From assembly GCA_001414345.1 (NCBI GenBank), contig LLCB01000138.1, positions 78,031-142,030 of the forward strand: DNA of 64,000 nt. The letters run 5' to 3'. How positions within the stretch are numbered: position 1 is the stretch's first letter; every line of letters begins with the position of its first letter. Source of the stretch: Hymenoscyphus infarciens. Lineage: Eukaryota; Ascomycota; Leotiomycetes; Helotiales; Helotiaceae. Position numbers and translations under genes: made by a program. The notes under the pieces were generated by a model that saw only the letters and a list, made by a program, of their open reading frames with translations, was not told the origin of the DNA and did not search any database. Of the stretch, positions 12,845-37,384 are shown piece after piece.

Positions 12845-12952
12845 AATATTATTATTCTAGTCTAAATCTAGGCTAAATGGTATTCGAAACAAAAGAAAGT
12901 AATAATAAGCTCGAAGAGATATTATTTATACCGTCTCTAGTAAAGAAGAGTT

Positions 12953-13486: not shown

Positions 13487-13493
13487 AAGAAGA

Positions 13494-16494: not shown

Positions 16495-18248
16495 ATCTTT
16501 CTAATGAAATAGGAAGCAAACAAGACGAGTGGGTGTCAAAATCATATCAAGAAAAAATTTGTGTCCTTACCTAGCGCTTGAAGAACTGGAATATGGTGGG
16601 AACCGAGTGGCCATGCTTCAAAGCCCAAAGCCGCAAACCAAATATACCTATGAGCATAGCGAGTAGTTAGTGAAGTTTGCAAACGGCGATTTCAATTGGG
16701 CATTCATCAGGTCGGATGTATTGTGGGCAAGGCGACAGTAAAGCGGCAATGAAACAGCCCTCTTGTCAACCCAGAAAGTTCTTCACCATGAGAAAAGCCT
16801 CCCACCTACTGGATTTCACTCAAACTTTGTTTAGTTTATCACTGTAGAAAAGATAGTTTTAACTTCAAAGATTCATAATTTTGAGCAGGCCAAATGGACA
16901 AAAAGAAGCAAGAAAACTTGACAAAAAGAGATGGATAGTGGCACCTGTCTAGACTGGTGCAACTCAATGAATGTTTGTGACCTACAAGGTGCAAAATTTC
17001 TCCTCTCGCTTGGAAAGCTTAACCGAACACAAGCACCCCAAGCTCTCTATACACAGTTGCTATCTTTTGCCATTAACACTTAGCTCTACTACCTGTAAGA
17101 ATCTATCTTCCAAGGAACATGCAAGTTCTGGCAAGCACAAGTTGCGAGACTCCAACTCAGACTCCCCAATGAAAGGCTTGGTAAGTAACAACAACTTCCA
17201 ACTTTACTAGCAACACAGCAACCCCCAATGTAACGACTCCTGCACCGAAAGCTGACAAGCCTATACTCTATAGGGAAACCCCTCTCAACTCCATCCTCCT
17301 CCTTTCCGCATGGGAAATTCGAAAGCGAAACGCGAAACCAAAACAAGCCAGCACAATCCTTCTCCTTCCCATCTTTTGTATGCCGCCACCGATTTATTCA
17401 TCCCTTTCGTGCCACGACAAACATTCCACTCTTGAATTGCTCTCTTCGACATATCCCGAAAACAAATCTTCGTGGCAGACTATGGGTGCTTTGGTACATC
17501 GTGTAGTTTCGTTGCGAAGCTTCCAATAGTTAGGGTTAGGAAGGCTGTTTGGGAAGGGATCAGCGGTGGTATTGTTGTTGAGGGAGGGGATAGCTTTAGT
17601 AGACGTTTGGCTCAGTGGTGGTCTTATTTGATACATTGTTCTGGGAAGTGGCAGATGACAAACGTGGTGATACGGTGTTGTGGTGCTATAATTTACTTGT
17701 GGTGCATTGGGTGGTCTTTTGGTGATTGGCATTTGTAAAATTGACCGAAGAAGCTCTCCTTGGGTGTACGAACATGGAAGATTGAATTGTTGCATAGAAA
17801 GCACAGAAGGAATGCTTCTCAAATACATTATCTGTTACTGCCATACCTTCAAAGACTTCATGGCGGTGGAAGATGCCAGAAATGACTCAGTCGCTGCTTT
17901 TTGGAGTCTAGGGGTTACAAGAACTCGGGACTGTAGCCCTTCTACAATTCTCCTAATTCCCCTGGTTTAATGAAAGCAATTTGGATCTAATTTTTCACGC
18001 TTTTTTAAGATAGCCCCATTGATTCTTCAAGTCTTGGTGAAATAATTGCTATAAACTTGTGAGTTCCAGCACCCCCTAGTAGCGTCTGCTTTCTGCTGGG
18101 TTTGGTTGTATCACCTTTGATAGATCACGCTCACAATCAAAGTAAAACCATTTGGATGACCGGACGCAAAGGTCTTTCTTATTCCCGGTTTTCGATTCTA
18201 ACAATGCGACACCTTGGAAACTCTCTGTTCTGCGAATATTCCACCTGC
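16495..18248. other. Intergenic, no convincing gene
   Basis: The interval has normal base composition. Short open frames exist on both strands (for example minus 17394-17828, Ser/Thr/Pro/Asn-rich), but none shows a domain, a good start context or splice continuity that I can defend. It probably holds the promoter of the protease gene and the 3' flank of the 2EXR gene. Confidence 0.4.
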
Positions 18249-19436
18249 TCAGGCCCATTCAAACAAATCCCCCCCCTCGATGCGTGGAATATGTACCTGT
18301 CTTCTTGCCATCCTAAGACGCTCACCTCTTGTTACATACCTGGAATCCCATTCAAGTTGATCAACTACCCCCATCCCCGGATCTTTCCAACTCAACGGCT
18401 TAACCTCCCCTCCACTGCCCCTATAATCTTCTTCGGCCTTCGCGAAATGCTCTAAGTAAACCACAACCATGTCCTCGATTGCATTCGTCATGCTGAAATC
18501 CGATTTGTTGTAGACATCATGTGGAAGACGCTTGAGAGACTCGGGATTCGGATCGACTTCGAAGGGTATGGTTGCATTGCCAATCTTAATAATGATTTTC
18601 GGGGTCGTTCGGGGTTGGTCAAGTTTTGCTAATGCTGCGAAAAACATATAGAAGCTTACTGCAGTGAGCCAGAGCGGATGTCGAAATAAATCGGTGGAGT
18701 CGGCAGGGGGGGCGCAGTCTTCTCGATCTGGGGTTGGTTGGAAGAACAGGGTCACCGTCTCGAGGTTTCGGATACGTAGGAAGTAGTCGTACTTGGTGCG
18801 ACCGACACGGGCGATACAATATTGTCGACCGGCACCAAAGACATCATTCGCAAAGTGCGAGAATTGCCGCGTAGAAATCCTCAGGTCGTTTGTCACAAGT
18901 ATATGTGGTAAAATCTCCCACTGTACATGCTTTATTGTCTCGAAGAGTCCTGGGTTCGGCAATAGATTGTGTGGTAGCCAGTAGAAACCATTGTAATTCT
19001 CCAACTGGAAGACATCTCTGGCAGGATCGAAACACCACCAGGTCGTGATTTCCCTCTCTGCACCATTGATTTCCTTAACACGGCTTTGTTGATCAAACCG
19101 AGTGATATCTCGAATGGCCAGCTTGTAGAACTTCAACGTTTCCCGTCGAGACTCTCGGTTAACGTGGAGAGTTACAGGGTAGTATTCTTCGTAGAGTCGT
19201 TTGAGGATGGACGGGTCATCTGTCTTGGGGAGAGATTTGATTTTGGTGGGTTGGAGGCGGAGGGTTCGTGGTGGCAGAAACGACAAACGAAAAATCTCGA
19301 GGCGAATTTCTAGTGGGAGATCTGGGAGGTAATGGAAGGCGATGAGGGGTCTGGTTTCCGTATCGTTTGGCAACGCTGGGTAAGGAGATTCCATTGCGCC
19401 TTGCAAAGAGAGGGGAGGTGGTATGGTTGTTGGCAT
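18249..19436 (-). CDS. 2EXR domain protein, ~395 aa
   Basis: This is an intronless gene with a 2EXR domain. The block FHYLPDLPLEIRLEIFRLSF near residues 35-55, followed by PVTLHVNRESRRETLKFYKL about 50 residues later, is the family pattern of an F-box-like start plus the vNrESR helix. The rest is rich in Trp/Phe and has no other domain I know. The frame stays open about 90 bases upstream, but only through a TTG after a CTTTGCAG tract, so the ATG at 19436 (MPTTIPPPLSLQG) is preferred; ATG at 19394 is another option. 2EXR proteins are abundant in leotiomycetes and dothideomycetes and their function is unknown. A second family member lies next to it at 20060-21184 on the same strand, and a broken one at 57795. 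Confidence 0.85.
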   Translation of the reverse strand: MPTTIPPPLSLQGAMESPYPALPNDTETRPLIAFHYLPDLPLEIRLEIFRLSFLPPRTLRLQPTKIKSLPKTDDPSILKRLYEEYYPVTLHVNRESRRETLKFYKLAIRDITRFDQQSRVKEINGAEREITTWWCFDPARDVFQLENYNGFYWLPHNLLPNPGLFETIKHVQWEILPHILVTNDLRISTRQFSHFANDVFGAGRQYCIARVGRTKYDYFLRIRNLETVTLFFQPTPDREDCAPPADSTDLFRHPLWLTAVSFYMFFAALAKLDQPRTTPKIIIKIGNATIPFEVDPNPESLKRLPHDVYNKSDFSMTNAIEDMVVVYLEHFAKAEEDYRGSGGEVKPLSWKDPGMGVVDQLEWDSRYVTRGERLRMARRQVHIPRIEGGDLFEWA

Positions 19437-20059
19437 GCTGAAATCTGGGTTGGGGGTGGGGTTGGGGAGCCTGAGGTGGTTGAGAAGGAACCGGCTGACC
19501 GCAATGAGTAAATTTTGTGCCTGCAAAGATTATGACGTAAAATGGACTGCGATGAAATGGAAAACATCCGCAGAGAGAGTTGCGCTAGACATCAAAAGCA
19601 ATTTTAAATAGTTTTAATTTGTACTTGCTCGTCTTGCAAGTTTTCTAGGGCAATGGATGTAAATTATCCAAAACACTTCACAAATTATCAACTTCAACTT
19701 GCCAGGGCTAAATTTTGAGGCGCAGATACGGTAGGTTTTGTTTTCTTTTTGATACTTTGAAGAATAGAAAAGAGTTACGAAAAGAAGTTGCATGTTTGGA
19801 CTTGATGTTCACACGCAACTAATGATTAGTTAGCGACCAACAATATTTCGTCTATAGGATAAAAATCATAACACCTGGTAGTCACATCAAAGAGCAAGCA
19901 TTAACAATGACAACTTGAGCTGACTGTGACTCTACAACCTTGAATTGTTCCATGACTATTTTTTCATGAAAGTGTAACTGAATTCTGGCTGGCTTATTGT
20001 TATCTGTTCAAGCTGAAAGTACATAGGCGGCAGAAAGCATCAGGGTTGTGACAATGCAT
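19437..20059. other. Intergenic between the two 2EXR genes; no gene seen
   Basis: This 620-bp spacer separates the end of the 20060-21184 gene from the start of the 18249-19436 gene, both on the minus strand. It should contain the promoter of the latter. I see no conserved element. Confidence 0.4.
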
Positions 20060-21184
20060 TCAACACCAGAGCAACAATGACAATCGAATGCTTAAATCAA
20101 GGCCCTCCTTCGCGTTGTTGTCCACCCGCACCTTGCCACCGACACCGAGTTCACCACACAGCTCTATTTCTTTTCCTTCCGCCAGTCGAAGTGGACATGG
20201 CCATTCCATTGGAGGAAATGCTTTAGGAATCCCCATCTCAGCATCCTTCCAGACCAATTGAGGACCAAGCCTTTGTGTTGCAGTTTCCCAATAAATTGAA
20301 TCTTTGTCCCGGTGGTGACGAAAGAGTCGCAGCAGATGTATAATAACACGTCTAATCTCAAGCCACTCACTGCTACAGATACGATGGACAACAGCGACAT
20401 CACTAAGACCTGCAGCCCGCAAGCTTTGCTGGAGGTTGTTTCCTAGAGCTTGAATCTCCAAAGGAAAAAGAGCACCCTTTCTCTTGATTGTGATCGTTGG
20501 CAACCTTGGATAAAACACAGCTGCAGTATATAGAGCGCATTTCCAAACATTGAATTTAGCTGTCGCATCTTCGGAGGTATCTTTATCGATGAGGATAACA
20601 TTCTTCAAGCTTGGGAGTGCTGGGAGCATGGTAGATTCGATGTCGAGCTCTCCATTGTCCATGACAGACTCGTAATATTCAGCTTGACTTTGCCAGTTCT
20701 CCTCGATCTGGATCGTTTGGATGTGCTTCTCAACACCGACATTGAGTTTCGAAAAGTGGTGGAACCAATGGTGGAAATTCTTCTTTACGTTGAAGACGTC
20801 TTTGGTCGGATCGAAGCAGAGGAAGTATCGAAGGTATGGTTCAGTGTTTCGGTGGGGACCAAATTCGTATGCCGTTTCAGTCGGGATCTGGAAGAATTTT
20901 CTGTCGTCGGACCAGATAGCTTGAACTGCTAGCTTGTAGAATCGTAAGGTTTCATGCCGACTCTCCTGATTGATATGAAGGGTGACAGGATGTGCAGGTC
21001 TTGGTGAAGGGTGCTCGTCGATGATACCGTCTTCTTCGCCGTGGAAGGGTGGCACAATAGGAGGTTGGATATCGATGACTCGGGGGCTTTCGAGAATGCA
21101 GTGGATGATTTTGAGTCGGATTTCAGCAGAGAGGTCATTGTAGTTGAGACTGGTGGCTCGCTGTTTCAAATTGATGGTCGCCAT
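20060..21184 (-). CDS. 2EXR domain protein, 374 aa
   Basis: Second intronless 2EXR gene. LNYNDLSAEIRLKIIHCIL (near residues 14-32) and HPVTLHINQESRHETLRFYKL (near 63-83) match the two conserved blocks of its neighbour. Outside these blocks the two proteins are diverged, so this is an old duplication. The start at 21184 has a good context (CCAAAATGGCG). The long C-terminal region (FPPMEWPCPLRLAEGKE) is unknown. Function is unknown for the family. Confidence 0.85.
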   Translation of the reverse strand: MATINLKQRATSLNYNDLSAEIRLKIIHCILESPRVIDIQPPIVPPFHGEEDGIIDEHPSPRPAHPVTLHINQESRHETLRFYKLAVQAIWSDDRKFFQIPTETAYEFGPHRNTEPYLRYFLCFDPTKDVFNVKKNFHHWFHHFSKLNVGVEKHIQTIQIEENWQSQAEYYESVMDNGELDIESTMLPALPSLKNVILIDKDTSEDATAKFNVWKCALYTAAVFYPRLPTITIKRKGALFPLEIQALGNNLQQSLRAAGLSDVAVVHRICSSEWLEIRRVIIHLLRLFRHHRDKDSIYWETATQRLGPQLVWKDAEMGIPKAFPPMEWPCPLRLAEGKEIELCGELGVGGKVRVDNNAKEGLDLSIRLSLLLWC

Positions 21185-22349
21185 TTTGGCTGCTCAAGCA
21201 CGCTGAGAATAATTAACATTAAGTACTTTGCGGTTAATTCGCCAAAGGCACATACCTAACGTCAAATTCTGGATCAGAGTCAGTTCGTGAGAACTAAACT
21301 AGTAACTGCAGGTTGCATGAAGCCACTTGCAAATGTGTGAAAGTATTCGTTTGGTGGGTTTTTGGCAATAATGGAGGACAGTCAATTGCTCTGCAGGTGG
21401 GTTGAAGGTGAACCGATAGCGATACCTGCAACAAAGTCATACTGTGTGCAGTCATTCTCCAGCCCCACTTTAAGATATAACCCTAGAGCGTCTCTATGTG
21501 GATCATAAAAAAGGCAGTAAATTTCTAGCTTGTTGTTCCCTACGCATTAAAATTCACTGTTACCCTAAAAACTTTGAAACAGATCATCTTGGTTGTTCTT
21601 AAATACCTTGGTCACTTTTTTAAATTATTCCAAAGTTCTAAAGTAATTATTTTGAACTGCTGGAGAAAGCTTGAAGAACGGGCTGCAGGTGCGTTGTTAT
21701 TGCCACTTTTACTGTCCACTATCAGAAAGTGGGTGATGTTCAAGTTGGTATATGCTTAAGCGAGATGATTCTGTTTGCCATAATTAAAATGCAGTTAAAC
21801 CTCTTTTTCTTTCTGTTTTGAGTGAAAAGCGAGAAGTGATAAACACATAACCCACAATGAAGAAAGGGTAACCAGAAAAAAAGTTATGGCACTAAGGGAA
21901 AAATCGTTTCCTGGAAGAGACTCAGCGTCTCTGTATAATTGTTGACTGGCTTGTGCCATGAAAACTCAAGGGGATAAGTTCCAGCTCTGGTGTGTTGGGA
22001 CGAGGTCCTTCTAGACGCTGGGAGATACCCCTTTCATCTTCGAGACTGGCTGTTCCATGTCATGCTTGGACTCTTTGACAAATTCAGCAACACATTAATA
22101 TAAAAAGGGTGATCACCACCACCACCAAGATTTCTCACAAACGGACTGTCTTCTGTGATTGATACGTCACTTCGTCACTTCTGAGAATCTCCATCCGCTG
22201 CTGTTTGCTTCGCCTACTGGCTCCACGAAACAAAGCTCTGTCAAGAGGCAAGTCACCACTTCCATACCTAAATGACTTGCTGCTTGTACCAATCTTTTCT
22301 TAGCAGAATAAACTTTCGCCAACTGTGTTTTCCACCTCACAATACGAAG
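21185..22349. other. Intergenic, divergent promoter region
   Basis: This space lies between a minus-strand 2EXR gene and a plus-strand DUF7918-like gene, so it must hold both promoters. I see no gene. GGAGATACCCCTTT at 22021-22034 recurs upstream of the second DUF7918-like gene. Confidence 0.4.
22021..22034 (+). promoter_or_regulatory. Shared 14-nt upstream word of the DUF7918-like pair (copy 1)
   Basis: GGAGATACCCCTTT lies about 320 bp before the ATG at 22350. The identical word lies at 24528-24541, about 345 bp before the paralogue's ATG. It contains CCCCT, the core of the fungal stress-response element. A regulatory role is inference. Confidence 0.35.
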
Positions 22350-23517
22350 ATGGCCATCATTGAGGTCATTCCAGGCCTCGAGGTCGCAATCCTTGTCAAA
22401 AATACCCCTGCCAAGGAATACGAGAATATCGAGGACGAGGAAAGCGACTTTAAGACAAACAAGGACAGCCCAACCAAACAAGTTACGCGATACATCGAAT
22501 CCCTCACGAATAAAGAATTCCAAATCTGCATCAAGGCCAAAAGAGACTATCGATTCAGTCATGACGCTCTCAGGATCGATTTCACAGCTGACGGAGTTCC
22601 CATGGCTTTCTTCGAAGTTCTTTGGAAGCCGGACCGCCCGCAAAATACCACTCTCGTTGTGAAAGGGGTGCCAGTAGGGGACTGGGCTAGAGGCCATGGT
22701 GGTCGCAAAGCATTCAAGTTCACAAAAATTGACACCGGTAAAGCTCCTCAATTTGGTTGTCATATTTCAACAAGAAAAAAAGAACTAACTTAAATCCACA
22801 GTATCCGATACTACAGCATCACACAAAACCACAGAGGAGGAAACCCTTTTAAGAAAAATGGGCCAGATCAGTGTCGAAGTTTACGAGGCAAGACGTGAAA
22901 GAAACGTCCCCATATCAACAAACTTCGAAAATGCTATGCTCAACGCCCCAAGCTTGATGCATGAGAAGGACATGAAAGGCGACGAGAAATCCCATGGTGT
23001 CTCGTACTACAACCCTCTCGTTCAAAAATGCTATCCAACGCTAACTAACCCAGGCTCGGTACTGTAAGGCCCACTGGAAAGAAAATGCGAAGAAGGGGCG
23101 ACTATGCAAGGAGAGTAACCGATAAGATGTCTCCGATGGCTGTTTATATCTTCAAATATCGATCCAAAGGTAAGCCACTCTTCACCAAACAGCCCGTGAC
23201 AAGTACGAGTTTCTGACCAATGAATCACACAGAACGTCTTCAGCAGCTCCAAATCCTTCCTCGCGATCCCGAATACAATGGCACCCATGGTCTCAACGCA
23301 TTGAAGGTATGTGCCCCCACCCTCAAATTCTTCATGGTCTCTATGAATCCTTTTGCAATTAGCACTACAGTTCGCTAATGTCAAAAAAAAATAGAAAGAA
23401 AAGGCCCCTGGTTTCCCACGAGCACGAGGCATCAAGCACGAAGGATCTGAACCAGCAACATCACTGCAAAGTTTCAACATGTCGGACATTGAAGTTATTG
23501 ACCTGGTCGATGACTAG
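22350..23517 (+). CDS. DUF7918-like protein, 5 exons, ~300 aa
   Basis: Exons are 22350-22737, 22802-23003, 23054-23169, 23233-23306 and 23395-23517; joined they give 301 codons including the stop. The N-terminal domain starts MAIIEVIPGLEVAILV, with EYENI and TRYIESLTNKEF, the layout of the fungal family annotated DUF7918 (name from memory). Near residue 225 comes MSPMAVYIFKYRSK, also typical. The tail ends IEVIDLVDD, a hydrophobic-acidic stretch that resembles a SUMO-interaction motif. The start at MAIIE is chosen because the paralogue at 24885 aligns from exactly there; an in-frame ATG 78 bases upstream is not conserved. Exon 2 has the same length (202 nt) in both paralogues. The donor of intron 2 is the weak GTACTA. 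There is no signal peptide or membrane segment. Function is unknown. Confidence 0.78.
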
Positions 23518-24884
23518 AGTCCCAGCCCTTGGCATCAGAGTTTGAGCAGTGTATCAAGGGAAATGTTAACCCCAGGCTGTGTTTAATTACTTTCTTCTTA
23601 TTCCAGAGCTTGGTGAGGAGATTTGTTCTATGGGAAGAATCCTTTAGTTTTGATAAGTTGGCGTTTTGGCAAAAAGTGGAATAGTAGGTATCTAGCACAG
23701 AATGTCACATCCCCCTTTCATAAGAGTGTAAGTCGTAAAGTACATGGCACCTGTTTTCTATCTTTCGATATTTTCTATTATGGAAGGTTTTCATTTCCTG
23801 GGTTTGCTGCGACCAGCATAGCTTCTGATATGCTCTATTTACGAACGGTAATGTTAGCCAACAGCGTTGAATTGTTAAAAGGGTTGCTAGGTTATGTTAG
23901 CAGAGACAGGATGGAATAAATGTGTTAATTGAGTAAGCTTCTGGGCTTCTTGCATGACGGAATTCAGAGAGTTTGAAGATCTGTGGAATTGTTTGCGTGT
24001 TATTTATCAATGATCTTCAAGAATGGCAGCAATAAACAAGTAGATTGAATTCAAGACAGAACTTGTTATATTGATGATCGATACATGAATCTTGACACTC
24101 CTCCCAGAAGAAAACTATCTCGTTGTAGACAATAAATACATCAGATTCGCACATGCCCAACATATTTAGTGAGGGTAGTTTCAGGCAGTAGACTGAAATA
24201 CTGAAGCGGATCAACAAGTTTGACCCCCATGGCTTAGAACGATAAAGTTTGACTGTCCCAAAGCATGTAGGGTAGAATGTTTACCACAACGAGCTATTTA
24301 CTGCTGCTTCTTTTGTCCCCTAGATAGATTCAAGACTTTCTGGTTACAAGCAAGCTACTTTTTCCCAGCACTGTTAAAAACTGTTGTGAAGATTCAATAC
24401 AGTATTTTCACTTTCGTCAGTCTTGCATTTTACAACATTACATATTATAAGCACCTTCTTATAAAGGAAAGTGTTTATGCTGGGGCGGTCGAAGATAGTG
24501 TTAAACCCCGAACTTTAAGCGATAACCGGAGATACCCCTTTTGACAATCGCCGAACAGGGGCTGAGGTCGCAGCCTCGCACTTAACAACTCCACACCTCG
24601 ACAACAAACGCAGCAACTCGCAATAAACCTGCTGGGTGCTGGTCAAGATTTACTCGGAGGTTGGATTCTTCGTTATCGATCCTTGCATCACCCTATCTAA
24701 GAAAAGGCGCCAGCCTACCAGGTTCACGGAAGACGAGGCTAAACCCCCTCAGTAGGTAATGTTGTTGGATGATATCACACAGATTTCTTGTGCTAATTCC
24801 CCCAGCTTCTTCTCACCAACCCCGCGTTTCTGCGATAATATTCCCCGAGAAATCACGCCTTCTTCTAGTACGAATACGACCAGG
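23518..24884. other. Intergenic between DUF7918-like genes; no gene seen
   Basis: The interval is ordinary in composition. It contains the promoter of the second DUF7918-like gene, including the shared word at 24528-24541. Short open frames have no features. Confidence 0.4.
24528..24541 (+). promoter_or_regulatory. Shared 14-nt upstream word of the DUF7918-like pair (copy 2)
   Basis: GGAGATACCCCTTT is identical to 22021-22034 and sits at a similar distance from the start codon (about 345 bp before 24885). The surrounding sequence is not similar, which argues against simple carry-over from the duplication. Confidence 0.35.
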
Positions 24885-26097
24885 ATGGCCATCATCGAAG
24901 GAGTTCCAGGCATCGAGGTTGGGATCCGCGTTAAGAACGAGCCGGCACATGAATATGAAGACAGAGACGACCAGGCCGAAGATGATGCTAAGAATAAATC
25001 TGGCTCGACGAAGCAAATCACCCGGTATATCGAATCTATAACCGATGAAGAATTTCAACTCTCCTTGTCAGTCCATCCTCAAATCCGCGGCTCCGCAGCG
25101 CCTCTCCTCTTCTACGTCTATATTGATGGCGTGGCATGCTTCGGGAAAAGCTACGAGGGAGGGAAGTGGAACTATATCGTGCAAGGAAAAAGAGTTGGCG
25201 AATGGAGCACCGGGGAGGGAGGTTATCAGGCATTCAAGTTCTCTCGAATCGAAACTAGTAAGTCCACAACTCTTCTTTGAGTAATAGTCTAATTTCATGG
25301 CACAACAGGCTCCGAGGAGAAATACAGGGGAAATTTTAAAGACGACACCAAAGCATTAAACGGCATCGGTGCCGTAAGGGTCGAAGTTCACCACGCCCAG
25401 AAGGGAAGTGGAAAACGAATAGGCAACCCCAGAGACAAGACAAGTCTTCAAGCACCTAATGTTGTTCACGAAAAGGCTATGAAGGGGGAAGCAAAATCGC
25501 ATGGGGTTTCGTAAGATTGAGATCACTCCCAGTATTCCAGGGAACTAATTAAAGTCAATAGGTTCGGAGACTTCAAGCCTACGGGCAAAACCTTGTCATC
25601 ATCGTGTAAGGTCTTGGGAGACAAGAAGTCCCCTATGGCTGTTTTTGTTTTCAAATATCGATCTAAAGGTATGTCTTCGTCTAGATTTGGGCCTTGTCCC
25701 TCACTTACATCTTGTTAGCTTCCTTGAAGAAGCTGCTCGTCATCCGAGGGGCACCTGAGCAAGATGTCTTCGAAGGGCTTGGTAACGAGGAGAGAATGAA
25801 AGCGGAGCGTTATATTCAAGAACTGAAAGTAAGTAACTTCACGGATTCTTTTTTTTCCAGTGGTCAAGTGCGCCCTTTTAAACACCATACCCTGAGAATG
25901 TTGGATTGCTGAATTGCGCATATATGCTCGAGAACTATTTACTGACTGGATTCTGTTAGAACAAAAGTGCCCAAAATTCTGCCCACCGAAAAGGCGTCAA
26001 GCGCGAGCGCACCGATTGCGACCATAGCCACGAATCACGGAAGAAATCCAAGAAGCCGGATGTAGAAATCGAAATGGTCGACTTAACTGATGACTAA
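24885..26097 (+). CDS. DUF7918-like protein, 5 exons, ~309 aa, with basic tail
   Basis: Tandem paralogue of 22350-23517. Exons are 24885-25257, 25309-25510, 25562-25668, 25719-25828 and 25960-26097, with intron phases as in its neighbour. The protein starts MAIIEGVPGIEVGIRV, keeps TRYIESITDEEFQL, FKPTGKT and MAVFVFKYRSK, and has a longer last exon with basic clusters (HRKGVKRER and RKKSKKPD) that could be a bipartite nuclear signal. It ends EIEMVDLTDD, again like a SUMO-interaction motif. A nuclear role is inference; no enzymatic motif is visible. The two proteins differ enough to be functionally distinct. Confidence 0.8.
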
Positions 26098-27395
26098 AAA
26101 TCATCTGACTATAGATGAGTGCTACCATTGTGTCGCAAGTGGTGGATTCCGCCACAAGGCATCATTGATATTTGAGGGTTTGGCGTTGTGGATTCGGCTT
26201 GCTCAATATACCCCCTTGTTTTTATGGAGCCTGGAGTTTTGCGACGTCGAGGCGGGTTAAATCATTCTGTACCCAAGGGCTCAATGGAAGCTGAGTGGTT
26301 TCTTCAAATTCGTTTATTTAATATGAGTATTATTGTTTTCGGAACTTCCGATGCCTCTACAGCATGCACTCTAATAAATAAATCCTGGTGGTAGTGGTGG
26401 TCTTCTCGTAATAGAGATTGAAAGAGGCAGCTCAAGGATTGTACTTGCCTACCTGGCTCTCCTTATTCTAACCTTATAGGGTAATTCAAGTAATTATCCT
26501 GAAGATATAGAACCATTGCCAAGTTCTACTAGGATGCTAGAACAATAAGCTATTTGCCGCCGCTTTCAACGTCCGTTTTGAGGTGGGATTTACTTCAGAA
26601 GGCAAGTGCGAGGGATGGGGTAATCGCTCGGTCCACCCTCACCCAATCCGCGATTATATGCAAAGCCTAAGAATGAGCCTTCCTCCGCTTCAACTCCACC
26701 CGCTCCTTCCTTCCTTCCTTCCTTGCCCACCTAGATAACCTTCGACAAGTTTAATTTACATACACGCTTTCTGTAAGACGGCTGTTCTCAGGCTTCTCTC
26801 TAAGAGAGTAGGTTAAACCTCTTAGTAGAGTTTGAAAGAAAGAGTATGTACCTCGCAGTTCAAGTTCTTCAAACGCCTTGCCAATTAGTTGTTCTAAAAC
26901 ATTTAAGTCAAAAACTTAAGTTGTTCTCCAAGTCTTTGAAATTTTTGGTTTAAATACCACTAGATGTTGAAAGGTAGGTTGGCAGGGGCGAACCTGACTG
27001 CCACTTCCAATGTCCATCGCTGGAAAAGCTCAACAAAAAGTCCAGTATTCAGGTGTCCAGGACGCCCTAGCAATGGCATTCGAGGCCGGCCTACAGGGCG
27101 AGTGCTCTTTGTCTATAAACACAACCAGCTTAAACTATTTTCCAAAAGATATCCATGGAAATATTCTGGCCATCTCCCGACAAAAAGAGGTTCTTTTCAT
27201 CAATAAATCTGCCTCACTAAATGTGTCAATGAGCACTTACTACAATCACGACGACAGCTTCCATTCACAGAAGCCCCCTTCGAAGGTTGTTCACGTATTT
27301 CGGTCTCCATAAATAGCCAGTGATGCTCTTTTTTATTTCCTTCCCCTGTTTCCAGGCAATCCCAAGCAAATACGAACCCCATTCTCACATAAAAA
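26098..27395. other. Intergenic with small microsatellites; no gene seen
   Basis: This 1.3-kb spacer contains a CCTT run near 26703-26724 and a GGT-rich run near 26383-26400. A 100-codon frame at 27010-27312 has no domain and overlaps the promoter of the next gene. Confidence 0.4.
27308..27315 (+). promoter_or_regulatory. TATA-like core promoter CATAAATA
   Basis: CTCCATAAATAGCC lies about 80 bp before the ATG at 27396. The next two genes of the same family have TATAAATA 111-133 bp before their starts. The role is inferred from position and similarity. Confidence 0.4.
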
Positions 27396-28058
27396 ATGGA
27401 CACAGACGACTTATCCCCAATATTTTGCTACTTACCCTCGGGTCCTTCATTTATCCTCCGCAAAAAATTCATGAGCCGTTACATGTTCCACATAGCTGCC
27501 TTCCACCAACTAGCACAGTCCAAAAAATCTGCTTCTTCCTCCCAAACGTCCGAGATTGATGACCTCGAAATTCTCCGAAACTTCCCACTGTTGAGAAAAC
27601 ATTGGCTCGGAGTTCTTCGCGAGTTCCACTCGGAAACATTTTCTTGTAAAGACAAGAAACTGCTTTCGGATTTTCATCGTGCGATGATACAAGATCTTGA
27701 CTCCAGCTGGGACGGGTCTAAGCATGACATGTCTTATCCTGAACGCCGTAGAGCGAGCGATGTTTCCGAGGCAGAACAACGGCTGGAGGCAGTAAAGCTT
27801 GTTCTAGAAATTCGTTTTGAAGACGCGATTGGTCCTGAAGAGCAACACGTCCGTAACAACCTACCTCAAGAATTGCGCAACCCCTGGCAGGCTGTCCAGG
27901 AAATGTGCAGCTTGTTACTCGAAGCGAACGTGGGATTTGAAGAAAGTAGATCAATCATGGAGGCCACGCTGACGGAGATCGCAAAGGACCACACTCGTTG
28001 GTTGGGGAGATTTGCCAAGAGTGGCGATGAGACTTCCAGGAAAAAAACGAGAAGGTAA
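27396..28058 (+). CDS. Unrecognised helical-module protein, member 1 (220 aa)
   Basis: Intronless. I do not recognise the family. One copy of a module shared with the next two genes is present: SRYMFHIAAFHQLAQS near residues 27-42, then EILRNFPLLRKHWLGVLREF near 58-77, then LLSDFHRAMIQDL near 88-100. A second helical half follows (EAEQRLEAVKLVLEIRFEDA; WQAVQEMCSLLLEAN). There is no signal peptide, no membrane segment and few cysteines. The C-terminus is basic (SRKKTRR). This is the most diverged of the four modules. It opens a same-strand cluster with 28794 and 32231. It reads as a soluble all-helical protein (inference); function is unknown. Confidence 0.68.
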   Translation: MDTDDLSPIFCYLPSGPSFILRKKFMSRYMFHIAAFHQLAQSKKSASSSQTSEIDDLEILRNFPLLRKHWLGVLREFHSETFSCKDKKLLSDFHRAMIQDLDSSWDGSKHDMSYPERRRASDVSEAEQRLEAVKLVLEIRFEDAIGPEEQHVRNNLPQELRNPWQAVQEMCSLLLEANVGFEESRSIMEATLTEIAKDHTRWLGRFAKSGDETSRKKTRR

Positions 28059-28793
28059 CACAACAGTCTCTAGTAAACTCCTCATCCAACGAGCCTAATA
28101 ACTGGGCCTTTGGGGATCTAAATGCTCACAGTTCAAACTGGAAGGGTCCGTGGTTGGGTTTTTGTATTTTAATCGCCAGACTTTTGCTTTTATTCGTTGA
28201 TTAATATACTTTCGTTGTATTTTTGATTACTGCTAAGCAAGCCAGTCCCAAATTAACTTCTCTTTGTCCGTGCATTACTTCCAACACAACCAACACCATT
28301 TAGACAACTGGTAGGAATCGTCTTGATGTGCCTTGTAGTATATTAAACACAAAGAAATAAAACGTCTTCTCAGTTGTTGCAGGAAGGACATGCGACCACA
28401 CTAGTGGCTGACCTGTATGTATTCCAGGCTCCTGCCAGCCTTTACTCTTCAGACGTTTATTACCACACTACATAAGTGATTACTTTCACGTATTTCAATG
28501 AGCCCAGCCATAAGCCCTTGATCTGTGATCCAGTCCCTTATGCTCCATCAGTTCTGACTCCAGATTTCTGGTATATCAGCTATTCCAATCACTCAACTGG
28601 GTTTCCATTCACAACAAACCATGTATCCATCACATTCACACCTTCCAAAATTCTATAAATACTCAAATTTTCCCCCTTCATTTTTTCAAGTCTACAAATT
28701 AAACTTACAACAACTATCCTAAATTACAAAACTTACGCCTTTGCACAATCTTTACACAGAAGGATAACACCAAGTTTCCGAAACTGCTTCGAC
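28059..28793. other. Intergenic, holds the promoter of the second module gene
   Basis: No gene is seen. A TATAAATA box lies at 28654-28661 and is followed by a C/T-rich then CAA-rich leader of about 130 bp, a common fungal 5' UTR pattern. Confidence 0.4.
28654..28661 (+). promoter_or_regulatory. TATA box TATAAATA
   Basis: TTCTATAAATACTC lies 133 bp upstream of the ATG at 28794, with a pyrimidine run and TCAAGTC downstream that could mark the transcription start. Confidence 0.5.
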
Positions 28794-30032
28794 ATGGATC
28801 TCTTCCAGCTTGATACAATTGATTTCGAAAGCCTCTTAAGTATCTATAGGTTTAACATCGCCGTGTTGAACAGGCTGCACTCCATGGACTTTTCCGGAAA
28901 CCACTATATATCAACACGTCCCTATTCACCCAAAGGCTACTGGGAGATTATTTCTGCCTTCCCTGAAGCCATAAATCATTGGAACAGTTTCCTCGAATAC
29001 TTAGGACGAGCCAAACACTACTTAATGACAACTACGGTGATCCCAGAAGGCGTGGAGTACCATAAACTTTGGCATGGCCTTGATTGTGCAATGAAAAATG
29101 CCGTTGCTCAGAATTTCGAAAGCATAGGTAGTAATCGCAAAGACCACTGGGCTCGGGAACTTTCCCGTATACAACAACGTCGCGAGGTTCTCGAAATGCT
29201 CGGAAGAATTCACCTTGATGAGCTACCGGGCGATCGATCAACTATCGATGGACTCACCTCATTGACCGACATAAATACCGAAATATGGCATCTTTTCATG
29301 ATGATGGATAGGATTGTGCCGGATATGGGTAAACTACAGAGACTCAGAGTGGTGTACGCTTCGCTCGATGATATCAAACAAGATTATTATCATGATCGAC
29401 CAAACATTAATAGGCTTCCTCCAGAAACGCTTCGTGCACTCATCAATACCTATATGTTTCACATCTCCGTCTTGCATATTTTGCATGATCCAGCAAGCGC
29501 AAAGCATACAAATTCCAAACGTAAGTCTGGCTGGGACATTGTCGAGGAATACCCAGATGCTCAAGAGTCATGGAACGATCTGCTGTGCAGAGTCTTGACG
29601 CACAATTCCCAACCCACAACAAAGGACCAAGCGGATCGCCACAGCATCTGGAAGCAGCTTGACAACGCAAAGCGGGAAAGGTATGGGCGGGAATTCACTG
29701 AACTTGGCATATGGGCAATGACATATCAAGATTGGGAGCTCACACAACGACGCATGAAAGCCTTAGATAAACTCCTCCCCAGTCATGAAATAACTGAACC
29801 CTCTGAGCCTCACGACGAATGTTTTGTCGATTTACTGATTATCCTATGGCTGTTGGGTGAAAAGTTCGTGTTCGAGAGAAAGATTCTCGTTATTGAAAAA
29901 GCTCTTCAGGCAATTCAAAACAATTATGGAGAGCGCGAGAAAAACGATCTGGGATATCGGGATTACAAGGAGAAAAAGGAGAATGACCGTAAGCAATTCA
30001 TCTCAGATAATTACGGGGAAGCGTTTCCATAA
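28794..30032 (+). CDS. Unrecognised helical-module protein, member 2, with two tandem modules (412 aa)
   Basis: Intronless. The protein contains the module twice. The first copy has YRFNIAVLNRLHS near residues 18-30, GYWEIISAFPEAINHWNSFL near 48-67 and LWHGLDCAMKNAVAQNFESI near 92-111. The second has YMFHISVLHILHDP near 220-233, GWDIVEEYPDAQESWNDLL near 243-261 and IWKQLDNAKRERYGREFTEL near 283-302. Each copy is followed by a helical stretch ending in a bulky aromatic or charged helix. The tail is highly charged (GYRDYKEKKENDRKQ). There is no signal peptide or membrane segment. The internal duplication and the single-module neighbours suggest growth by gene and module duplication. Function is unknown; a helical interaction scaffold is only a guess. 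Confidence 0.75.
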   Translation: MDLFQLDTIDFESLLSIYRFNIAVLNRLHSMDFSGNHYISTRPYSPKGYWEIISAFPEAINHWNSFLEYLGRAKHYLMTTTVIPEGVEYHKLWHGLDCAMKNAVAQNFESIGSNRKDHWARELSRIQQRREVLEMLGRIHLDELPGDRSTIDGLTSLTDINTEIWHLFMMMDRIVPDMGKLQRLRVVYASLDDIKQDYYHDRPNINRLPPETLRALINTYMFHISVLHILHDPASAKHTNSKRKSGWDIVEEYPDAQESWNDLLCRVLTHNSQPTTKDQADRHSIWKQLDNAKRERYGREFTELGIWAMTYQDWELTQRRMKALDKLLPSHEITEPSEPHDECFVDLLIILWLLGEKFVFERKILVIEKALQAIQNNYGEREKNDLGYRDYKEKKENDRKQFISDNYGEAFP

Positions 30033-30796
30033 CCATGGGCTTCGTTGCTCACCCTCCGGCGATGTTGTGGATATCTAACTTGCGAAAGGGTTGTTCATGA
30101 GTGAAAGTTGTAGGGGGCGGCTTTGAATACTGTATGCTATTTTGCGAGATTTTTATTGCTTGTTCTGCGTTGCGTTTCTATCTCTAGCTCGGCTCATCTA
30201 TAATGGTAGTGTCATTGGTAGCCTTATTAAGACATAGCCACAACTCTAGTTATATTTTTGGATTAGATTAGATTGCGTTGAAATACTATAATAAGCTAGA
30301 TTTACATCCTATTCTCTAAATTGACGAAGTCTGAACTTGGTGTTATTTTTGAACAGCATCAAGAATCTTCCTATCCTAGGCAGCTTTCGTGGACCTCTCC
30401 GTGATCATGCTGGGGATCCATTCCCTAAACATTATTTCATACGATCCTTCAGTATCTTTCCCCAATTTCTCTACGACAGCTTAAAAAACAAGGAGATTAA
30501 TTGAAACTATCCAACATTAAAAAGCTGATATCTCAAGTTTCCTATACAATCGCAACTAGAGCTGAGTATATCTCGTATAGTGGGGGGAATAGTTTAGAGG
30601 ATGGAAGACTACGCTTCTTGTGTCCTCCCTGGACCTGATATACTGGAAGCCAATATTTGAGAGAAGCTAAGAAGCGCTCTTGGAATAAATGGCCCAATTT
30701 GGTTCCAAAACTTTACCACGTCCCTTATACTTAACTTTTGCAATTTACGATTTATAATTTGCGATTTAGTCGTTTCCGGCTTTTAGTATATACGTA
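30033..30796. other. 3' flank and edge of a RIP block; MITE end at 30735-30790
   Basis: Composition drops to AT-rich from about 30,720. Bases about 30735-30790 match the right inverted repeat of the mariner-like MITE family (AATTTACGATTTATAATTTG, GCGATTTAGTCGTTTCCGGC) but its other end is not next to it. No gene is seen. Confidence 0.45.
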
Positions 30797-31068
30797 CGGT
30801 ATTCGGAATATACTAAAAAGTCGGATTAACTAAATCGTAAAATATTACTTTCTATAAGTATAAAAGAGAATAATTTTCGATTTAAATTTCCTCTCTCTCC
30901 TTCTCTCTCTACTCTCTATATTAAGACTAGATAGTCTTAACTATAGTAACTAGCTAATTAGAGAATAGAGAGAAATAATAAGTAATATATATATAGTAGT
31001 AATATCACTCTCTTACTATTATCTTCTTACTATTATATTATATTCTTCTTATTATTTCTAGATATATA

Positions 31069-31115
<47 letters not shown>

Positions 31116-31483
31116 AAGAGAGAGAGAGAAAGAGAGAGATAGAAGGAGAGAATTATTTACTACTTTTACTAAACTTCTCTTATCTCTACTAGGAAAAACT
31201 TTCTACTAAAATATTTACTCGCTCTCTCGCTCTCTCTCTCTCTCTCTCCTCTCTCTCTTCTATACTTTTTTATATATATAATATACTAAAGAAGGAAAGA
31301 GTAGTAAGAGAGAGAGACTAAGAAGTATTAAAGTACTGTTTTACCTCTTTTTTAATAAAGAGCTTAGATAATAATTATTAAGTTCTACTTTAGCTCTAAA
31401 TACTCGACTTTTACGATTCACGATTCACGATTTACGATTTATGATTTAGTCGATTCCGACTTTTTGGTATATCTAGGACGCTC
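30797..31483. mobile_element. Mariner-like MITE copy (687 bp, TA target)
   Basis: The left end is TA|CGGTATTCGGAATATAC followed by AAAAAGTCGGATTAACTAAATCG; the right end is its imperfect reverse complement, finishing GGTATATCTAGGACGCTC|TA. TA flanks both ends, as for Tc1/mariner insertions. The core holds long AG runs (31070-31140) and CT runs (31205-31255) that pair with each other. Relatives are at 35558-36325, about 49655-50270 and a fragment at 9325-9780. There is no coding capacity. Confidence 0.6.
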
Positions 31484-32230
31484 TAATATTCCAGCTTTTT
31501 TTGTATCTATACCAAATTGTAATATTCGTTTGAATTCAATGATATTATTACCAATAGATGCTAGTGAAGTTGTCTTAGAATACTCGTAAAGAGATCATCA
31601 TTCTTCTATAAGAGTTTTAGTTGTTAGATGTTCTCTAATTATTACTTCGGGGTTTCTCACCTAATCAAGTGTCTATTCACGAACAGCCATTGAAACTCAT
31701 TCACTTAACCCAATTTCCTTTGAATCATTGACAGAGTTCTGGTATATAAACTTGTAATTTGGTCTTACTCCTTTCTTTGCAAGATCTTTTGTTTGATTCG
31801 TAGGTCTCGCCAATGATAGTTTTCTGGACACTAATGTTGATCTGTTGGCCAAGCACGAACGCTCTTTGTCTTTACCACTACCACAAATCCAACCAAAACA
31901 AAATAGATCGTCGAATACAGTGTTGCTAAGATAGCTGTAGATAAACAAAGTCTATCATTTTCAACAAAATTTGTTCAACTCCATTGTGATCGTGTCTTTT
32001 CCAAAGTTTAAGCGGGAACTCTGACAAGTCATGTCATTCAGTTGCCCCAATCACTACCTCAAGCATGCGACTCATAGAAATCTGGCACCTACCATTCACA
32101 GACTCTAAGCTCTATAAATAACGAGAAGTTGTGCTTCGCTCTCTTTACTTCATCTTACACAACCTACACGGAAAGCGATTCCACAATTACAAAAACAAAG
32201 CTTCTACACGACAGACAAACAGCACGCATC
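31484..32230. other. Intergenic, holds the promoter of the third module gene
   Basis: Base composition returns to normal by about 31,680. No gene is seen; the minus-strand frame at 31697-31948 has no features. TATAAATA at 32113-32120 precedes the next gene. Confidence 0.4.
32113..32120 (+). promoter_or_regulatory. TATA box TATAAATA
   Basis: AGCTCTATAAATAACG lies 111 bp upstream of the ATG at 32231. It also lies only 9 bp upstream of an in-frame ATG at 32129, too close for that ATG to be transcribed from this box, which supports the later start. Confidence 0.5.
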
Positions 32231-32866
32231 ATGGTTATTGAAAAACTTCATGGGAAGAGAATCTTCGCTCATGTCATGAGCACATATTTATTCTACATCG
32301 CCGTCTTGAATGAGATAAAAAATCCTAAAAAGGTGCAGCAGGTCCCTGAAGATATTCGCGATCCTTATTTCGACGTCGTCCAAGAGCATGAAAAGGTTCA
32401 ATCATACTTCATCAACTTGCTGAACTCAGCATTGCTCGTATATGATGAACATGTCGAGGATAAAAACCTACTTTGGAAGGAGCTGGGTACGGCCAGGGCC
32501 AACGCCATCCAAACAAATTTTATTTCTCTAGGGTCATGGAAATTCGACGAGCCTGAACGTATGGAAATCAGACGCTCTATCTTGGGCGGATTGCGCAACA
32601 ACAGCCTTCACGTCACATTCTCCGAGCAAGATGAAGAGCCCCGAGATCTTATTTATCAGGAGGTTATCGATATTTGCACCCCCTACGGTAAATTATTTAC
32701 CAGGGCGCCGTATGACGAGTCCACGTCTGCAACTCACGGAGAGCATGAGAACGGTGTTAGGGCCATCGAACGCGCAATTAATATATTGGCCGAATTCTAT
32801 AAAAAAATTGGTGCCTGGTCAGACACCTCCCAAACTCCGAATACCACTTCGGTCCTAGGCGAATAA
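32231..32866 (+). CDS. Unrecognised helical-module protein, member 3 (211 aa)
   Basis: Intronless single-module member. YLFYIAVLNEIKNP near residues 18-31, YFDVVQEHEKVQSYFINLL near 46-64 and LLWKELGTARANAIQTNFIS near 80-99 align with both modules of the 28794 gene, especially the second. A later helical segment (GVRAIERAINILAEFYKKIG) matches the KALQAIQNNYG helix near the end of that protein. The start at 32231 (CATCATGGTT) is preferred over 32129 because of the TATA box at 32113 and because the extra 34 residues have no counterpart in the paralogues. A MITE lies 104 bp past the stop. There is no signal peptide. Function is unknown. Confidence 0.72.
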   Translation: MVIEKLHGKRIFAHVMSTYLFYIAVLNEIKNPKKVQQVPEDIRDPYFDVVQEHEKVQSYFINLLNSALLVYDEHVEDKNLLWKELGTARANAIQTNFISLGSWKFDEPERMEIRRSILGGLRNNSLHVTFSEQDEEPRDLIYQEVIDICTPYGKLFTRAPYDESTSATHGEHENGVRAIERAINILAEFYKKIGAWSDTSQTPNTTSVLGE

Positions 32867-32970
32867 CTACCCCGCTCTGGCCGCTCTGACGACAGGTAGA
32901 TGGATAACGCGGTAATCACGGAGGGGTGTCTGGATGGAAAAGGGTACGAACTATTGTATTCATATTGACG

Positions 32971-33738
32971 CAGTGTGGTCGATAGTATTTAGAATATTGT
33001 ACCACCACGATATATTGTTAGAAACCCACTTTAATATGTACTATTTATACTATTTAAATGCTACGATATCTAATAATATTATCCTTTATATTATTGGTAT
33101 TTTAATCGATATTGTAATAATATCGTGGTGTTGCTAAGCTATAATATTTAAGCTTTTTACCCCGGATTTTACTCTACTTCTTTTCAGCCTTTTATTTTAG
33201 CTTTATATAGTATAACGTATAATATAAAAAATATACAGCTGAATAGCTAGAATTATAGATCTATTTAAATAGAGTATTTTAAAAAAAGAATTATATAAAT
33301 AGCTCTTAAATTAACCTAAATATTATAAGGTTAAAAAGGTAGCCTGTGCGAGATGAAAACATGTCTAGAAATCTCTTAACACCAAGTACTAATTAACGAC
33401 AACGTTAGATTACTAGCTAGAATATAATAAACTAGTGTATTGAATTCTATTAAGTTTTACCCTTTAATTATAGGTAAATATTAACTAAATCGATGAATAA
33501 AAATTATTTTAGTCTAATAAGTAAGTGATAAAAGAGTATATAGAAAAAGTGTAAATAGCCTCATTTTGAGAAAAAGTGGGTTTTAGCGCTTACGAGTTAT
33601 TAAAAGATATACTGTATAATATCACGATATTACGATCGTATTATAACGTATTTAGATACGTACTACTAGGATATTATAATAATATATTAATCTAAAATAC
33701 TGTAGTATTTTATCACGATAATACTATCGACCACACTG
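32971..33738. mobile_element. hAT-type MITE (768 bp) with perfect 8-bp target duplication
   Basis: The element starts CAGTGTGGTCGATAGTAT, and its other end is the exact reverse complement over 18 bases. TATTGACG stands directly on both sides (32963-32970 and 33739-33746). An 8-bp duplication and CAGTG-type termini are characteristic of hAT transposons. The interior is AT-rich, contains a nested inverted pair (CACCACGATAT near 33003 and ATATCGTGGTG near 33120) and has no coding capacity. Confidence 0.85.
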
Positions 33739-34108
33739 TATTGACGAACTTTGCTGTTACTCTTCTCGCCTGACTTTTCAAATTTGATTATATAACGAAA
33801 CTTGGGTTGGCTCTGACCTAAGTTTCCGGAGGCTCGAAGTTTAGTTACTATTTGTTATTATCCTTGGTTGAAAGTCTCCAAAAATATAAGCACTATTACC
33901 TTTCATTTCAAACATCCTATTAGTGCCCAAAAACACTCTGTCACGTTTCTGAACAAAATTCAAAACGCCTAGCCACATTAGAACACTTGAGTGAGAGTTC
34001 CTTGCTATTAGTTGATGCTTTTAATTAAAGAAATACTTAGCGAATCTGATTCACACTAATTAAGCTTAAACATTAGATTTTAGTTTAAAACTACTCTAAA
34101 TAAGAGTA
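33739..34108. other. Spacer between two MITEs; no gene seen
   Basis: About 250 bp of normal composition (the rest of the sequence interrupted by the hAT MITE) is followed by AT-rich sequence. No reading frame or repeat was recognised. Confidence 0.35.
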
Positions 34109-34591
34109 TAGTAAGTTGCGAGTTATGCTTCCCTTTTAACGATTTTTTTTAAACTATACGTTTTTAGAAAAATTCTTATTTCCTAGACACTCTTTCCCTC
34201 TTTACTTAATAATAACGTAAGTTATTATATCTTTAAGAATAGCTAATAAGAGCTCTATACCTCCTTTCTTACTCTATAAATCTTTTAAGAAGAAAACAAA
34301 TACTTTTATATATATTTAAATTTTTATAAGGTCTTAGTAGAACTTTATAAGAGTATAAAAATCTTTCTTATAAAAGAGCAATTTACTATAATAAAGTTTA
34401 TTCTTATTATACTTACTTAGATATAGTAATAAAGAGAGAGGAGGTATAAGAATATATAGTAGTTCTTTCTAGCTAGGTCTTATAACTTAAAGAGTACTTT
34501 AGTTGTCTGTTTTTAAGAAGAGAAGAAAATTTTTAAAAACATATAGTTTATAAAATATCGTTAAAAGACAAGCTTAACTCGTAACTTACTA
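34109..34591. mobile_element. Tc1/pogo-like MITE (483 bp, TA target)
   Basis: The ends are TAGTAAGTTGCGAGTTA and, reverse-complemented, TAGTAAGTTACGAGTTA, with AACTATACG/CATATAGTT pairing further in. The flanks are TA on both sides (34107-34108 and 34592-34593). The right half recurs at 50280-50445. There is no coding capacity. Confidence 0.6.
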
Positions 34592-35557
34592 TAGTTTCAA
34601 ACTAGACTACTAATTACGTCTATACGTAGAATATAAGAATAGCTAAATAGATAACTCTCTTATTCTTCTCTTAATAACACTTTCTCCTACTAAATATAAA
34701 TCCGACTCTTATACTCTCTCTATCTCGTACTTTTCTTATTTTTTTATATCTATAAATCTCTAACTTTAAACTTTTCTCTCTTACTATTGAAGTTCTCTCT
34801 ACTCTCGAACTCCTTTCTATCTCTACTTCTAGCTTTTCTACTCTTTATAAATAAGATACTATTATCTCTCTTCTATATAATAGATATAAATAGGTTAAGC
34901 TATAGTTTATAAGATTTTGATTATAAATTAACTAAGAGCTCGCTTCTAAGAATATTTAAAGAGTTATTTACTTTTACTTAGTTACTTTTTCTCTCTTACT
35001 ATTTCTGTCTTACTTTCTTTTTCTCTTATATTCTATACTATCTTACTAAACCTAAGTACTAAGTACTAATACCACTCCACTTAATCTAAATAAATAAAGA
35101 AATAAATAACTAAAGAAGAACAAAAAATAAATAATAAAAACAAGCTAAAAAAAAGAGAAGATTAGAATTCTATAACTATCTACTCTACTCTTTTAAATAC
35201 TTAATCTAACTTTTCTAGTACCTTCTAATCTGTTTTAAAAAGGCTTCTAGCTAGAGTATATATACTCTATATAATCTCTTACTTCTTTCTTCCTCTTCTA
35301 CTATTATATTATTCTACTACTAAAATTAATTACGTAGAAAAAATATAGCGAAGAGTAGTAGTATAAAAGCAACCTATAAAACTCTAATATCTTATACCTA
35401 TATTCTATACTCTCACAAAAGCCTTTCAAAGTATCTAATAAACCTAACAAACCTCCTTATAAGTAAAAAAAAAAAAAAAAAAAAAAGTAGTAGCTTTGTC
35501 TACTTATATCTATATCTATATCTATATCTATTCCCTACCCTCTACCTCCACCTACTA
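34592..35557. repeat. RIP-degraded AT-rich sequence with poly-A and a TATATC run
   Basis: The start (34620-34680) resembles the terminal repeat of the element at 48726-49622 (ACGTAGAATATAAGAATAGC). A run of about 22 A at 35466-35487 and a TATATC run at 35505-35530 follow. No gene is seen. Confidence 0.4.
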
Positions 35558-36325
35558 GGGCGTCCTATATATACCAAAAGTCGGAAACGACGACTAAATC
35601 GTAAATCGTAAATCGTAAATTATAAAAGTTAATAGATATAGTAAATCTTAAATTATATTATCCTATTCTCTTGCTCTCTTGCTCTCTTACTCTCTTACTC
35701 TCTTGCTCTCTTACTCTCTTGCTCTCTTACTCTCTTACTCTCTTACTCTTCTATCTTATTCTTCTACCTAGGTATATATTACGTATACTAAGAGAGTATA
35801 AGAGAGAGTAGGAGAAGAATAAGAGTAAGGTAAGGGGGTAAGTAAAGTAGAGAGTAGGAGGTAGTAAACATTCTAGGGGAAGGTTTTTCCTAGCGTAGGT
35901 AAGAGGAGTTTAAAGTAAACATTCCCCCTACTCTTTCCCTCTTCCCCTCTTCCCTCTTCCCCTCTTCCCTCTTCCCCTCTTCCCTCTTCCCCTCTCCCCT
36001 CTTCTCTCTTCCTCTCTTTCTCTCTTATTTATTTAAAAATAATAGAAAGAATATAAGATAAGATTTAGGTAATAGAGATAGAGAATAAGGAGGCAATATT
36101 ACTACTATATATATAATACTCGTCTTCCTTCTCTATCCTCTATTTAGTTACTATAGTTAAGACTATCTATAGTGTCTAGTCTAGAGGAGGGGAGGGGTAA
36201 AGGAGGGAGAGAGAACTTAAATTTAAAAAATATATATTTATACTTATAAAAAGTAATACTTTATAATTTACGATTTGCGATTTACGATTTAGTCGTTTCC
36301 GACTTTTGGTACATACAGGATGCCG
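35558..36325. mobile_element. Mariner-like MITE, best-preserved copy (768 bp, TA target)
   Basis: The left terminus TA|GGGCGTCCTATATATACC and the right terminus, reverse-complemented TA|CGGCATCCTGTATGTACC, continue into a shared AAAAGTCGGAAACGAC and then repeated TAAATCG units (35590-35620 and 36260-36290). The core is made of imperfect CTCTTACTCTCTTGCT repeats (35660-35750) and CCCTCTTCC repeats (35935-36005). There is no coding capacity. The gene island resumes directly at its right end. Confidence 0.7.
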
Positions 36326-37384
36326 TACCTACCTAAAAAAACAAAAAAAAAACTATTCCACAAAACAACCAAGAGAGTACCCGCCACTCTCAACACCCCC
36401 ACGACCCACGATTATGGAAGAGGAACTCAGACCCCGAGATCTTCAAAGATGAACTGTGAGTATAGTATAGTATATAATACCTCCCCTTCACCACTAAGGA
36501 CTACAACCACAACCACCTTCACCACCGCGGACCACAAACACCGTCCCCTCTACATATTAGAGCTAAGCACTTCTACTCTTCACCTACTTAGTATCTTCAC
36601 CACCCTCGTCGGCCCAGTCCCCGTGTCGATTCTCAGCATCCCAAGCTCGGTCCTCACTTCTAATTCTCTGGAAACCCCTTTCGGAGAAATGATGAGCTTT
36701 GTTTGTTCCCTGATTCTCTGACCGAGGCTCGAACAATTAGAAAAACCAATCTTCCGACCCAATATTTTTCATTTCTCCGGAGAGGTTTGGGAGAATGGCA
36801 AAACCTCATTCTTAGCTCTCCGAAACCTGCCCGCAGAATGCTTTCAAATCAATACCTCAAACTATCCCAACCATTTCGCACAACCCTCCCTCCCCCTCTA
36901 AACTCATCTCCTCTCCCAACTTTCCTAACAAAACAAAGCTCACATCAAGGTCATATCAAGAAACCAAAATGAATAGTCACACACAATTGTATTTTTTACA
37001 TAAAATCCTACATCATACAAACCCATGTATCAAGAACCCATCTCCGCGTGTTTCCCCACGCACAAGAGAGGTTAGATACCACACTTCTCAGCACCGTTTT
37101 TAGTCTTCATCCCCCAAATCTCCCTCCAATGCAGCTGCACAAACTCCTTCTAGAAACTCCCTCGGGTTTGACAAACTCCAGAAACAAGCAAGTCCATAAA
37201 ACACCCCAGTGAACCCCTCGAAGAGCCACTCAACACCATAAACACCCCTCCCATAAATCAAAGCACAAAAAAGCAAAGTTGAAAAATCAAAAGCAAGAAA
37301 AGGAAAAGCAAAAACACGCCACCCCCACCACCACCACCTCCACCCCACCCCCATGATCCCCAGCGAACCTCAACACCCCCTCAT
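36326..37384. other. 3' flank of the helicase gene; no gene seen
   Basis: C-rich plus-strand sequence with short open frames (36320-36721 is Thr/Ser-rich). None has a recognisable domain. It includes the 3' UTR of the minus-strand helicase. Confidence 0.4.

Follow-up and report, generated by a model that had tools for sequence, protein, structure and literature searches.

Three clustered genes with four copies of one module

We analysed a 64-kb stretch of the Hymenoscyphus infarciens genome (contig LLCB01000138.1, positions 78,031 to 142,030), hereinafter designated the window, which forms the right end of its contig in a 65.6 Mb assembly. Three neighbouring plus-strand genes (gene 1, gene 2 and gene 3, encoding P0001, P0002 and P0003) occupy about 5.5 kb of the window, each as an uninterrupted open reading frame (ORF). 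All three products are longer than 180 aa, the length of the longest ATG-initiated ORF seen when 8 kb of sequence was simulated 300 times with a first-order Markov model, and no signal peptide was seen in them on inspection by eye. Genes 1 and 3 each encode a single module (M1 and M3), while gene 2, split at residue 200, yields two full-length modules arranged head to tail (M2A and M2B; Table 1).

Judged from their sequences, the four modules are homologous, M1 by the smallest margin, because shuffle tests, a profile built without M1 and whole-genome searches each connect them. In Smith-Waterman alignments, none of 2000 shuffles reaches the score of M2A-M2B (z 15.7), M2B-M3 (z 13.8) or M2A-M3 (z 8.9). 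The pairwise scores of M1 are weak, with z of 4.4 against M2B (reached by 4/2000 shuffles), 2.9 against M3 (33/2000) and 2.1 against M2A (82/2000). A profile of M2A, M2B and M3, from which M1 was left out, detects M1 with 23.7 bits and an expect value (E) of 1.2e-6 among the 588 ORFs of 40 aa or longer in the window; none of 2000 shuffled M1 sequences reaches that score, the top one scoring 9.3 bits. In searches of the whole genome, M2B detects M2A (E 9.6e-6) and M3 (E 9.6e-5), M2A detects M2B (E 7.5e-6), M3 detects M2B (E 1.4e-4), and full-length P0002 detects M3 (E 3.0e-4).

The modules share 14.5–25.6% identity over aligned columns and 26–31% in local matches. Eight columns are invariant in all four (L6, Y19, F21, I23, L64, L85, R114 and P137 in M3 numbering), and W, A, G and other positions are kept in three of four. 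Specifically, a first helix with the pattern Y-x-F-x-I is present in every module, and a W-x-x-L-x-x-A helix in three. The conserved aromatic and aliphatic positions probably pack in the interior of a helical bundle. A first-pass annotation of this DNA had assigned one module, repeated four times, to a cluster of three genes; the shuffles and the M1-free profile bear this out, and an ORF check confirms the coordinates, plus strand and intronless state that it gave. It had confined the homology to three short helices, whereas the module is some 200 residues long and takes up the whole of each protein; nor is the W of the second and third helices conserved in all copies.

Promoters of the three genes

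The three genes also have upstream words in common. An ATAAATA box lies 88–140 bp 5' of the ATG of each gene, preceded in every case by the 9-mer CCATTCACA. Compared with 3/3 genes, ATAAATA occurs at 60–150 bp upstream of 72/2258 control positions in 14200–30000 and of 108/2858 in 14000–34000, with the three genes' own promoters included among the control positions. A 9-mer common to three 250-bp stretches was found in 33/20000 Markov triples and in 15/20000 triples from the real window. The shorter word CATTCACA occurs four times on both strands of the window (27262, 28606, 28633 and 32093); all four occurrences are in these promoters, in gene orientation, 134–188 bp 5' of the ATGs. We read the shared words as the relic or the functional core of duplicated promoters.

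Table 1 Genes, modules and promoter words of the cluster, in window coordinates
Feature	Position	Strand	Remarks
CCATTCACA upstream of gene 1	27261..27269	+	
TATA-like CATAAATA of gene 1	27308..27315	+	88 bp 5' of ATG
Gene 1 (P0001)	27396..28058	+	single module M1; 220 aa; intronless; C-terminal tail basic
CCATTCACA upstream of gene 2	28605..28613	+	further CATTCACA at 28633
TATAAATA of gene 2	28654..28661	+	140 bp 5' of ATG
Gene 2 (P0002)	28794..30032	+	two modules; 412 aa; intronless; internal duplication z 15.7
Module M2A	28794..29393	+	gene 2 residues 1-200
Module M2B	29394..30029	+	gene 2 residues 201-412
CCATTCACA upstream of gene 3	32092..32100	+	
TATAAATA of gene 3	32113..32120	+	118 bp 5' of ATG
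Gene 3 (P0003)	32231..32866	+	single module M3; 211 aa; intronless

Searches for further copies and relatives

The 65.6 Mb genome yielded no further credible copy when queried with each protein, M2A, M2B or a consensus, in searches that score only loose first-pass candidates and may miss very diverged copies. The only extra row, obtained with M2B, is at chance level (E 2.83) and contains three internal stops. The consensus recovers its own four source modules, each with E of 8.8e-25 or better.

Against 5.8 billion proteins, P0002 matches nothing at E ≤0.001 among 2464 candidates, and the four-row alignment matches nothing at E ≤10 among 1796 candidates. As a control, the protein of a neighbouring 2EXR gene matches two relatives among 2178 candidates in the same database, one 87% identical and one, from Hymenoscyphus albidus, 37% identical. 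Because the control found just these two, the fungal group is represented in the database, but thinly. Searches with one peptide pattern gave 47 stretches in viral contigs and 64 in prokaryote genome contigs, none of which was confirmed. The modules have no significant match in Pfam, NCBIfam, PHROGs, PADLOC, PDB sequences or the fold libraries, the last of these searched with low-confidence models of two of the four modules.

Thus, within this thin fungal coverage, the family, sequence and fold searches agree with the first-pass statement that the modules belong to no recognised family, and a lineage-specific family is plausible. "Recently expanding", as the family had also been described, does not fit copies of 14.5–25.6% identity at a single locus, with no further credible copy in the genome. 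The order of the duplications cannot be told from a quartet tree of the modules (support 51).

Repeat-induced mutation and transposons around the genes

The genes are without a signature of repeat-induced point mutation (RIP), with TA/AT of 0.56–0.62 and (CA+TG)/(AC+GT) of 1.18–1.41. Such a signature is present in 1–14000, 30680–31500 and 33000–37000 (TA/AT 1.45–1.82; (CA+TG)/(AC+GT) 0.14–0.49), and six AT-rich window segments have TA/AT of 1.29–1.82. Gene 3 is flanked by two RIP-affected stretches. The RIP indices, together with a miniature inverted-repeat transposable element (MITE), therefore support the position that had been proposed for the cluster, at the margin of a block affected by RIP and bearing transposons.

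Two elements, a solo long terminal repeat (LTR) and the MITE, explain what had been called a "RIP/MITE block", and neither is part of the gene family. The solo LTR lies between genes 1 and 2 (28375–28547), with TG...CA ends and the target-site duplication TCAGT. It is listed at 43 other places in the genome, with 40 of 143 candidates scored; across the window and 20 fetched loci, it matches in 32 rows. Among the fetched loci read by eye, seven (L029, L030, L032, L034, L039, L040 and L043) have matching 5-bp flanks. In eight fetched loci, paired LTR copies enclose common internal sequence, mostly of 0.8–1.7 kb. Because this short shared interior lists no ATG-initiated ORF longer than 110 aa, the element is short and probably non-autonomous. 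An Rfam search of the solo LTR returned one chance-level row (E 0.73). The segment 28374–28548, which recurs in the genome, often as same-strand pairs, had at first been considered as a promoter common to a dispersed gene family. That reading was rejected: TG...CA ends and 5-bp target-site duplications in copies read by eye, the sequence common to the pairs, and the lack of any module among the ORFs of the 20 fetched loci identify it as a solo LTR of a short element.

The MITE lies 3' of gene 3. It spans 768 bp (32971–33738), has perfect 19-bp inverted ends and is flanked by the 8-bp duplication TATTGACG (32963–33746 with the duplication); from these ends and this duplication we take it to be hAT-like. 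At least 40 other near-full-length copies, 90–96% alike, are present in the genome (40 of 379 candidates scored), and the RIP indices of the MITE itself are raised. Between genes 2 and 3, a segment rich in GA/CT repeats (30743–31464) has a RIP signature and lies between two 42-nt direct repeats that are 83% alike and separated by 680 bp; it is another, unclassified insertion.

Origin and possible role of the family

We favour the view that an orphan intracellular module, helical and protein-binding and found at one locus only, was duplicated in tandem long ago along with its promoter, and put the probability of this at about 0.5. This value rests mostly on what the family is; the function is what we infer. 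Specifically, an ancestral intronless gene for a mostly helical intracellular protein of about 200 residues would have undergone tandem duplication along with a promoter in which CCATTCACA precedes an ATAAATA box. Its copies would then have diverged to their present identity, and the double module of gene 2 would have arisen by fusion of neighbours or by internal duplication. The three genes are probably expressed, and jointly.

Because no enzyme family matched, we consider binding or an adaptor function likelier than catalysis; taken with the predicted helices and the conserved residues, this points to a module that probably binds protein. Because single and double forms exist, the products may pair with each other or with a common partner. 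A more far-reaching proposal is doubtful as a whole: a new intracellular helical interaction domain would have arisen in one helotialean-like lineage, where two proteins with a single module and one with a double module would be kept under joint regulation. These products would pair via the conserved aromatic helices, for example as a switch in self/non-self recognition or the stress response, and the CCATTCACA/TATA promoter would balance their amounts.

Several results weigh against the duplication of an orphan module as we describe it. The structure models of M3 and M2B are helical but weak, with a mean predicted local distance difference test score (pLDDT) of 55 and 63, respectively. Both were built on the same four rows, so the helix order they share is not independent, and their helix/non-helix states agree at 131/186 aligned residues (70%) versus 59% expected. 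P0001, used as query against the whole genome, finds only itself and none of its paralogs. By codon bias, the coding frame does not stand out: the antisense frame is about its equal, and in gene 1 another sense frame exceeds it. The promoter words and their distance range were picked after the data had been seen. Genome-wide, CATTCACA followed by exact TATAAATA within 8–38 bases occurs eight times, two of them here, versus ten for the reversed control. The combination is not commoner than its control and is therefore not a general promoter type. Likewise, 14000–30000 has no RIP signature either (TA/AT 0.76–0.80; (CA+TG)/(AC+GT) 1.22), so its absence from genes 1 and 2 is not special.

The strongest alternative, which we regard as possible, is that the module has diverged far within a known helical superfamily: a HEAT/TPR-type solenoid, a vinculin/alpha-catenin-like bundle, or the histone fold of Bromo_TP/TAF8. 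Such kinship would be out of reach for sequence searches with four divergent rows. HEAT/TPR-type Pfam families do appear, each below its gathering score: Laa1_Sip1_HTR5 (15.6 versus 27 bits), HAT_PRP39_N (12.3 versus 27.7) and ANAPC5 (13.3 versus 23). The C-terminal helices of P0001 align weakly with Bromo_TP/TAF8 (PF07524; TAF8 chains); however, the score of 12.7 bits is under the 24.6-bit cut-off, and just one of the four modules is listed.

A role in genetic conflict is unlikely; in that reading the genes would evolve fast, as allorecognition, meiotic drive or resistance-like genes, and their modules would recognise either one another or a partner that itself changes rapidly. Small intronless genes, strongly diverged tandem copies and adjoining RIP-affected repeats would suit such genes, as would the tandem neighbour pairs of DUF7918 (43% identical) and 2EXR (33%) genes, but no Pfam family passes its cut-off for the modules.

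Descent from domesticated retrotransposon gag-like proteins is very improbable. There are LTR remnants nearby, and P0002 has one sub-threshold match to Retrotrans_gag (PF03732; E 0.8; residues 228–323, profile positions 5–94 of 97). However, this match scores 10.4 bits versus a gathering score of 24.1 bits and is not listed for any single module. Moreover, no module was found among the 2100 ORFs of at least 40 aa in the 20 loci fetched for the nearby LTR element (best E 5.8).

Chance ORFs or decayed pseudogenes are hardly credible: although codon usage does not discriminate and the protein database and genome searches found no relative outside the locus, the ORFs outlast all simulated ones, protein-level homology spans most of the length of the three open frames, the genes are free of a RIP signature, and TATA-like boxes follow a common upstream word.

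Orphan tandem families beside RIP-affected AT-rich blocks are a general kind of locus in filamentous ascomycetes. The duplicated orphan module that we favour would be an ordinary find of this kind in a repeat-rich fungal genome, with its homology and promoter architecture now tested. Similarly to such families, the genes are clustered and intronless, their copies are divergent, they lie at the edge of a RIP-affected block, and no database relative was found with the thin fungal coverage. Unlike the usual secreted effectors, the products have no signal peptide by eye, and a double-module gene and common promoter words further set the locus apart. Should the module represent a new domain family, the locus would be an unusually clean small system: its four copies are divergent, two of them are joined in one gene, and the promoter words are conserved. 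One could test there whether paralogs nearly past pairwise detection retain common regulation and fold.

Neighbouring genes

The neighbours of the cluster in the window include 2EXR, DUF7918, SPT8-type and DUF3716 genes, and a 100-aa ORF without a family match over the cut-off lies immediately upstream of gene 1 (27010–27312). A tandem 2EXR pair occupies 18249–21184 on the minus strand, its members 33% identical over about 140 residues; one of the two is the gene with the 87% relative. 2EXR (PF20150) thus resembles the modules in having tandem copies within the same window; it differs in that the 2EXR neighbours pass the Pfam cut-off while the modules have no match, and hhalign gives a probability of 0.2 over 11 columns between 2EXR and the modules. 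A tandem DUF7918 pair at 22272–26100 matches in more than one exon and is 43% identical in its first part. Contig C224 holds several further DUF7918 matches, and C261 and C614 have others. At 52365–53120, an Alginate lyase 2 gene (PF08787) has an intact ORF.

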